NCBI RefSeq assembly: GCF_024124905.1 | Contig: NZ_JAMXST010000001.1 | Location: 806,001-870,000 of the forward strand | From: Cellulosimicrobium cellulans | Lineage (GTDB): Bacteria; Actinomycetota; Actinomycetes; Actinomycetales; Cellulomonadaceae | Length of the DNA: 64,000 nt | Direction: 5' to 3' | Part shown: positions 40,285-40,412 of the stretch, piece after piece | Layout of the letters: each line of letters begins with the position of its first letter | Numbering within the stretch: the first letter of the stretch is position 1 | The notes under the pieces: generated by a model | The model's input: only the letters and a program-made list of their open reading frames with translations | Told to the model about the DNA's origin: nothing | The model's database searches: none | Made by a program: the position numbers and the translations under genes

Positions 40285-40412
40285 CGTGGGTCCTTCGGGT
40301 CGTCTGATGGGTGTCAGCCGGCACACCGACCACCGCGACGAGGGACCGGCTAGAGAGCCTCGCCGCGGCAACGAAGGAGGAGCTGCCGCATTAGGTGCAC
40401 GACGCCACTGTA
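40285..40412 (-). promoter_or_regulatory. Leucine-responsive leader of leuA with alternative RNA pairings
   Basis: Minus-strand -10 TACAGT (40407-40412) sits 6 bases before the leader-peptide GTG. Pairing 1: leader codons at 40358-40368 (CCGCGGCGAGG) with 40333-40343 (CCTCGTCGCGG), 11 bp with one G-U. Pairing 2: 40336-40347 (GGTCCCTCGTCG) with the SD region 40289-40302 (CGACCCGAAGGACC), 11 bp with one mismatch and a 2-base bulge, hiding GAAGGA. They share 40336-40343, so they exclude each other. The Leu codons (40372-40378, TCCTTCG) are also a 7-base complement of the SD. Confidence 0.65.
40350..40400 (-). CDS. leuL: leuA leader peptide, 16 residues
   Basis: GTG at 40400 opens [16 protein letters not shown], ending at TAG 40350-40352. 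It holds five Leu codons, three of them consecutive (CTC CTC CTT, 40374-40382). There is no SD, but the -10 box TACAGT is 6 bases upstream, so it would be translated from a leaderless mRNA. Leucine-rich leader peptides before leuA have been proposed for other actinobacteria from comparative genomics. The inferred job is to sense charged tRNA-Leu through ribosome stalling; an internal ATG at 40391 is an alternative start. Confidence 0.75.

Follow-up and report, generated by a model that had tools for sequence, protein, structure and literature searches.

We conclude that the leader preceding leuA in the window, the whole 64,000-nucleotide stretch of Cellulosimicrobium cellulans DNA analysed (contig NZ_JAMXST010000001.1, positions 806,001 to 870,000), is close to certain to be a member of the LEU-element family. 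Comparison of its sequence with those of relatives also makes it probable that the leader acts as a ribosome-operated translational attenuator of leuA. With somewhat less assurance, we lean towards a wider reading, in which the LEU element would act as a ribosome sensor of modular build: a single pseudoknot chassis would serve several leucine genes, and the sensor codons would be exchanged according to the operon, with Leu at leuA and leuC, Ile/Val/Leu at a microprotein-leuB unit and Leu/Val at a LeuA_dimer gene. At leuA, the sensor codons would double as an anti-SD, beside a second, mutually exclusive anti-SD in the 3' arm of the pseudoknot. The original prediction, made from this stretch alone, interpreted the leader as a leucine switch, an interpretation that is partly supported; the direction of control it proposed fits leucine biosynthesis.

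The LEU element was predicted by Seliverstov et al. in 2005 (PMC1262725) before leuA in most Actinobacteria, and was described as a leader ORF with a run of Leu codons, a base stem between the Leu codons and the SD, and a pseudoknot. The leader studied here has an actinobacterial leuA downstream (identified by Pfam), a Leu-run ORF, a base stem between its Leu codons and the SD (P0), and a two-helix pseudoknot (H1 and H2) within that stem. The original prediction overlooked both helix H2 and the 2005 description. The features of the locus are summarized in Table 1.

Table 1. Features of the leuA leader in the window (coordinates of the window; all on the minus strand)
Feature	Coordinates	Strand	Basis or remark
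TACAGT, -10 box of the TANNNT type	40407..40412	-	read directly from the sequence
Leader ORF GTG...TAG, 16-residue peptide, leaderless type	40350..40400	-	sequence and relatives
Sensor, Leu codons CTC CTC CTT	40374..40382	-	LLL in these slots in 168/173 leuA leaders
P0 5' arm, anti-SD within the Leu codons	40372..40378	-	perfect 7 bp with 40291-40297
leuA SD region CGAAGGA, P0 3' arm and AS2 target	40291..40297	-	
H1 5' arm, last codons of the leader ORF	40358..40368	-	11 bp with 40333-40343, covariation
H1 3' arm; its 5' half doubles as part of the alternative anti-SD (AS2)	40333..40343	-	covariation, fold
H2 5' arm AGCCGG, overlaps the stop codon, inside the H1 loop	40346..40351	-	pairs with 40316-40321
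H2 3' arm CCGGCT, closes an H-type pseudoknot	40316..40321	-	pairing and covariation
AS2 5' side (GGUCC, UCG), alternative SD sequestor	40339..40347	-	minimum-energy fold of the free leader
AS2 3' side (CGA-A-GGACC), includes SD GAAGGA	40289..40297	-	minimum-energy fold
leuA, 2-isopropylmalate synthase, 593 aa	38503..40284	-	Pfam HMGL-like 4.8e-76, IPMS_D2 3.5e-35, LeuA_dimer 1.1e-31

The GTG start codon (40400-40398, minus strand, as for all coordinates below) lies six bases after the TACAGT box (40412-40407), as the original prediction stated, and the leader transcript is predicted to start at or adjoining this GTG. The short peptide with three consecutive, in-frame Leu codons (40382-40374) was likewise read correctly; its stop codon TAG occupies 40352-40350. 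H1 (40368-40358:40343-40333) has 11 bp including one G-U pair, and the presence of H2 (40351-40346:40321-40316) makes H1 part of an H-type pseudoknot inside the P0 stem. In the minimum-energy fold, AS2 takes the register 40347-40343:40293-40289 plus 40341-40339:40297-40295, 8 bp around a mismatch. AS2 and H1 share the H1 3' arm and are mutually exclusive; H2 likewise competes with AS2. A hairpin (40389-40382:40372-40365) is present in the free fold of the window's own leader. Codon 3 of the leader ORF (40394-40392) reads CTA in this leader, where near relatives have CTG. A consensus scan of 40230-40470 did not reveal an intrinsic terminator, the element expected of a classical transcription attenuator.

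A covariance model (R1) was built from an alignment (A1) of 46 leuA leaders, among them that of the window, and its matches therefore lean towards Leu-Leu-Leu. Of the 394 genomes of the class, 377 gave a match at E <= 0.01 (in two of these, E lay between 0.001 and 0.01), with the downstream gene checked for the fetched loci. A sample of 246 genomes from the phylum contained 29 with a match, 21 within the same class and eight outside it. The strong matches outside the class were two, both in one family (G540:C191:4087-4166 and G619:C34:10772-10851), and may reflect transfer or an older origin. The genome of origin (4.67 Mb) has two strong R1 matches, one before each of two leuA genes. The second leuA (G000:C3:816321-818048; L062, L065) is 50% identical to the first and has its own element, with the leader MSWTALLLLRHGGV; relative to the first, its H1 carries two two-sided changes, both with pairing preserved. 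Further R1 matches in this genome, from 28 bits down, were judged to be noise (L066, antisense to another ORF; L067, by eye). The window had no match to any model of Rfam 15, even at E 1, and a search of six relatives against Rfam at the gathering score returned only a tRNA, in L071.

A second covariance model (R2) was used beside R1 for further elements. R2 matches that scored no more than 30 bits and for which a downstream leucine gene was not found (L314-L317, L319-L322, L324 and L325) were judged to be noise; downstream of the R2 match L323, we noted a weak similarity (27%) to the LeuA C terminus. The removal of 15 weak or partial matches and of duplicates reduced 212 aligned matches to 191, comprising 174 leuA, nine leuB-type, four leuC and two LeuA_dimer elements and two that were initially unassigned (L263 and L275). 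The last two were later assigned to the leuB type from their leaders, L263 also from the leuB downstream. Among the 174 leuA elements, a leuA start was assigned in 170 and a leader ORF in 169 of these; the spacing filter left 164. The SD score by which leuA start codons were picked favours finding SDs. L122 is an ordinary leuA element (LLL, box, leuA 65% identical) and was excluded from all counts.

In 173 of the 174 leuA elements, a TANNNT box stands 6-10 nt before an ATG or GTG in one frame relative to H1, and the leader stop codon of the same 173 precedes the H1 3' arm. Composition-shuffled upstream stretches, scored in that frame, gave a box and start in 147 of 3,480. At least three Leu codons occur in the ORF frame of 169/173 leuA leaders and in either other frame of 0/173, and three fixed slots read LLL in 168/173, with variable third positions. 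Codon usage is also distinct. CTC (45%) and CTT (42%) together make up 87.5% of the leader Leu codons (n=529), against 33% of those that encode LeuA itself (n=3,528; CTC 29%, CTT 4%), where CTG accounts for 59%. As judged from these sequence patterns, the leader is under coding selection. The leader of L144 is identical in sequence to S. lividans leuL1, MRFGLLLLSCRGEGL, which the available text of PMC8079986 reports as leaderless and without a typical terminator. For M. abscessus, the part of PMC4974804 at hand describes a protected uORF upstream of leuA, found by ribosome profiling. A leuA paralogue (L313) has a leader without a Leu run (MLPRTTVLRRRGGA), and the pseudoknot core is still found there.

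The pairings H1, H2, P0 and AS2 are supported by sequence comparison. In A1, H1 was paired in 98.6% of cells, in agreement with the original prediction of an 11-bp helix, and H2 in 87.6%; two-sided changes occurred in four H1 pairs and two H2 pairs. The number of paired cells, the number of cells with two-sided changes and the covariation score lay above all 500 shuffles and all slid versions. The count of pairs with a two-sided change was unremarkable (reached by 53/500 shuffles; seven in one slid version vs six), as was the number of pair types in A1 (reached by 339/500 shuffles). Partner swapping among 110 representatives gave z -13.4 for H1 and z -7.9 to -8.1 for H2, and among 60 representatives below 64% identity z -10.1 and z -5.5, respectively; control windows for H2 gave z -0.7 and +1.2. 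The H2 arms vary in sequence, with 66 distinct best pairs among the 110 representatives.

For pairing with the leuA SD region, we scanned 31 12-nt leader windows in the 110 representatives, comparing own with swapped partners. Two clear peaks of co-variation with the SD were obtained, at the 5' half of the H1 3' arm (z -6.2) and at the Leu codons (z -5.1), and these two segments also pair best with the SD in absolute terms. The largest remaining values were z -2.8 (h5-36) and z +3.8 (h3e+22), and most controls were near zero. In an ungapped-helix test, P0 co-varied with the SD at z -5.8 in the 110 representatives, and a control window of leuA codons gave z +3.8. Since some control windows lie off zero, single z values should be read loosely. 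The ungapped-helix test with control windows replaced a whole-SD-region RNAduplex permutation test, which had been strong for both leuA pairings tried. Among the 60 representatives below 64% identity, the Leu codons gave z -3.9 (0/2,000 permutations) and the H1 3' arm z -3.3 (1/2,000); in 18 very divergent representatives, the SD couplings were not significant (z -1.6 for P0, z -0.9 for the H1 3' arm). Both stems of the original prediction, H1 and the pairing of the H1 3' arm with the SD, co-vary in the 110 and 60 representatives. Its SD-burying pairing exists, with the register of 8 bp around a mismatch in the minimum-energy fold. The perfect 7-base complementarity of the Leu codons (40378-40372) to CGAAGGA (40297-40291) had been noted as an aside; it is real and is the more widespread lock, as P0 covers at least 3 nt of positions -13..-7 in 94/110 representatives and AS2 in 69/110. 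In 70/110, P0 and AS2 overlap by at least 2 nt upstream of leuA. When Leu codons were resampled synonymously (200 resamplings, LeuA usage, ungapped helix), own-SD pairing exceeded the synonymous mean in 132/169 leaders, 46 of them individually at the 5% level. An RNAduplex version of this resampling gave no clear effect, the own codons being stronger in 92/169.

Ribosome footprints were simulated by masking everything up to 12 nt past the first base of the A-site codon and folding nested structures only, without the pseudoknot. In the window's leader, the SD was unpaired with a probability of 0.19 in free RNA and 0.18 (closed, with H1 and P0 formed) when the A site was at codon 3 (CTA). It rose to 0.69, with H1 at 0.99, when the A site was at Leu 7, and was 0.38 at Leu 8 and 0.19 at Leu 9. 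The original prediction that a ribosome slowed at the Leu codons would leave the SD open agrees with the computed family average, which peaks there; in this leader's own fold, the SD opens clearly only at the first codon of the triplet. Its further claim, that a ribosome at the stop codon closes the SD, was contradicted by the own fold, in which the SD was open (0.69). For 164 leaders, mean SD accessibility was 0.337 in free RNA, 0.367 three codons before the triplet, 0.440 one codon before it, and 0.445, 0.449 and 0.426 at Leu 1, Leu 2 and Leu 3; past the triplet, with the H1 5' arm covered, it was 0.380-0.393 over six positions and 0.409 at the last tested. Peak minus flanks amounted to 0.073 in the 164 leaders (paired Wilcoxon p 1e-12) and 0.059 in the 110 representatives (p 1e-7), kinship being ignored in both p values. 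When the middle, from the H1 5' arm to 18 nt before leuA, was dinucleotide-shuffled, the difference was 0.026 and the later fall disappeared. The fall after the Leu codons therefore requires the natural sequence of this region, as a two-lock model expects. The rise at the Leu codons results from masking of P0 by the ribosome and is seen in shuffled leaders too.

From these observations we infer a leaderless start in this organism, stalling, an order of events and an effect on LeuA output. The leader transcript would begin at the GTG and carry two segments, P0 in the Leu codons and AS2 in the 5' half of the H1 3' arm, either of which can sequester the leuA SD. Under a shortage of leucyl-tRNA, the ribosome would wait on the Leu codons and cover P0; the H1/H2 pseudoknot ahead of it could still form and lock up AS2, so that the SD would be free and leuA translated. 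With ample leucine, the ribosome would enter the H1 5' arm and terminate, and AS2, or P0 after release, would hide the SD. We count in favour of attenuation the covariation of H1 and H2, the two SD co-variation peaks, the own-SD pairing of the Leu codons in the ungapped-helix resampling, the in-frame LLL, the CTC/CTT bias, the footprint peak, the Ile/Val/Leu codons at leuB described below, the protected uORF of M. abscessus, and the lack of an intrinsic terminator. Against it, the footprint simulation, limited to nested structures, yields a small difference (about 0.07); a value of 0.440 is reached one codon ahead of the triplet, and past the triplet the SD remains more accessible than in free RNA. 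The SD couplings lose significance in the 18 very divergent representatives, the RNAduplex resampling gave no clear effect, P0 is weak in many leuB-class members, and in the window's own leader a ribosome at the stop codon opens the SD while a stall at the CTA of codon 3 would leave it closed. A published statement also speaks against attenuation: according to one passage of PMC1262725, mutations of the Leu codons do not influence the regulation of S. coelicolor leuA. Another passage of the same paper, citing Craster 1999, says that leader mutations had some effect, inconsistent with classical attenuation.

These effect-free Leu-codon mutants were cited by the 2005 authors when they preferred a protein-binding site (PMC1262725), in which a regulator such as an ML1624-like helicase binds the pseudoknot and the leader peptide is incidental. 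The compact, conserved pseudoknot suits such a site, but the ORF frame, the start and the Leu codons are conserved, the sensor codons change along with the downstream gene, and the arms of H2 are variable, as their 66 distinct best pairs indicate; we regard a protein site as rather unlikely. Marginally less unlikely is plain translational coupling, in which the SD would be opened by a ribosome anywhere on the leader, the Leu codons persisting solely as an anti-SD. A ribosome on these codons does mask P0, the rise in SD accessibility persists in shuffled leaders, and the Leu codons favour SD pairing over synonymous codons. Against coupling speak the LLL kept in the same slots in 168/173 leaders despite variable third positions, and the branched-chain amino acid codons of the leuB class, which are retained though P0 is weak in many of its members.

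Control may also act on transcription, through Rho or an unseen terminator, instead of on the SD. The mycobacterial ilvB1 leader, with branched-chain codons in a uORF and a terminator (as described in the available text of PMC13236596), offers a precedent, but the scan of 40230-40470 and the reported lack of a typical terminator at S. lividans leuL1 (in the text of PMC8079986 at hand) do not fit, and two segments co-vary with the SD; we consider this improbable. A small-molecule leucine riboswitch would suit a compact pseudoknot adjoining the SD; however, A1 has few invariant unpaired positions outside the helices and codons, as was likewise remarked in 2005 (PMC1262725), and no Rfam model matched even at E 1, which leaves a riboswitch very improbable. 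Attenuation by a ribosome on the leader is the reading that we retain.

The element is not confined to leuA. It precedes leuC, with LLL, at five loci (L104, L114, L115, L127 and L309; leuC identified by Pfam at one and by alignment or by eye at the rest). At 17 loci, it precedes a short ORF and leuB, of which the former was seen in 16 and the latter in 15 (in 14 by Pfam, alignment or the search itself and at L112 by eye). L099 has the short ORF and no leuB within the available stretch, and the stretch of L275 is too short for either. The sensors of the leuB type, which come from few lineages (five loci in one family, three in Aeromicrobium), are not Leu-Leu-Leu: Ile and Leu codons occur in 17/17 and Val in 16/17, compared with Ile in 7/173 and Val in 38/173 leuA leaders; given the few lineages, a Fisher test exaggerates this contrast. 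The leader ORF of L099, read by eye from the sequence, is MQWSVRILSRRDEAR. Genomes with both types (e.g., G076, G110 and G101) have LLL at leuA and the mixture at leuB. In the leuB type, the SD of the next gene is often distant and P0 is weak in many members, and the output step may differ from that at leuA. When R1 was applied to the leuB loci of 80 named genomes, an upstream element was detected in four, all Aeromicrobium (three at about 30 bits; L218 partial, at 22.8), and the other 76 leuB loci, two from Cellulomonas included, gave no R1 element above noise.

At three further loci (L141, L143 and L318), the element stands before a small-protein gene; the sensor codons at the stand-alone LeuA_dimer gene are Leu/Val. 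The L141 protein passes the Pfam cut-off for LeuA_dimer (2.4e-6), that of L143 fails (0.065), and L318 matches the L143 protein at 1.2e-9. A stand-alone allosteric domain of the LeuA_dimer type under a LEU-type element, as in L141 and also in L143 and L318, is possibly a regulatory subunit. In many of these Actinobacteria, leuB is also preceded by a microprotein of approximately 20-50 residues, in which motifs like ALQEAMDRRDNGGE or EWGPA...RPDDN occur. It lies downstream of the element at L112, L120, L129, L132, L136, L263, L099, L150, L181 and L190, and further at L286, L287, L297, L306, L307 and L308; at L145, L146, L151, L154 and L166, it was seen by eye without a detected element. Searches of four microproteins against NCBIfam and three against Pfam gave no family above the cut-off. 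In the literature searched, the text of PMC1262725 included, we found no published account of such elements at leuB or leuC.

In 2005, the preferred mechanism for the LEU element was a protein ligand, and the leader was considered unlikely to sense leucine; the papers searched contained no subsequent test of the mechanism. Should the Leu codons serve at once as the sensor and an anti-SD, mutating them would remove the sensing and one lock together. Such a combined loss of sensing and repression could, if true, explain the paradox of the reported S. coelicolor leader mutants. The comparative data lead to predictions that experiments can test, for a regulator present in 377 of the 394 genomes examined from a class that includes producers of amino acids and antibiotics.

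In the leu operon attenuator of E. coli, the Leu codons of an SD-led leader peptide sense charged tRNA and decide between a terminator and an antiterminator. The sensing by Leu codons is alike in the leader described here, whereas the terminator/antiterminator, the SD-led leader and the sequence are unlike. The ilvB1 attenuator of M. tuberculosis, in the available portion of PMC13236596, has an LVVI motif of branched-chain codons in a short uORF; it uses a terminator as opposed to the SD masking proposed here, and the LVVI motif also occurs in the leuB-class leaders L150 and L297. Closer in their start are the cysteine-responsive uORFs of mycobacteria, which, as Canestrari 2020 is represented in PMC9031893, attenuate the downstream gene: they are also short leaderless ORFs with contiguous codons for the sensed residue, cysteine instead of leucine. 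Leader peptides of leuA appear in transcriptome papers on S. lividans (leuL1), C. glutamicum (cg4015) and C. diphtheriae (PMC8079986, PMC4046766, PMC5784534). As far as the accessible parts of these papers extend, all three likewise have a Leu run before leuA, no start site is assigned for C. diphtheriae, and the leaders are listed as attenuators, the mechanism being untried there. The LEU element of PMC1262725 shares with our leader the Leu run of the leader ORF, the base stem between Leu codons and SD, the inner pseudoknot and the gene leuA; it differs in that the 2005 text favours a protein ligand, whereas we prefer operation by the ribosome. To that description, the present study adds a second SD-pairing segment that co-varies with the SD, a near-universal TANNNT-start arrangement, and elements at leuC, at the microprotein-leuB unit and at the LeuA_dimer gene.
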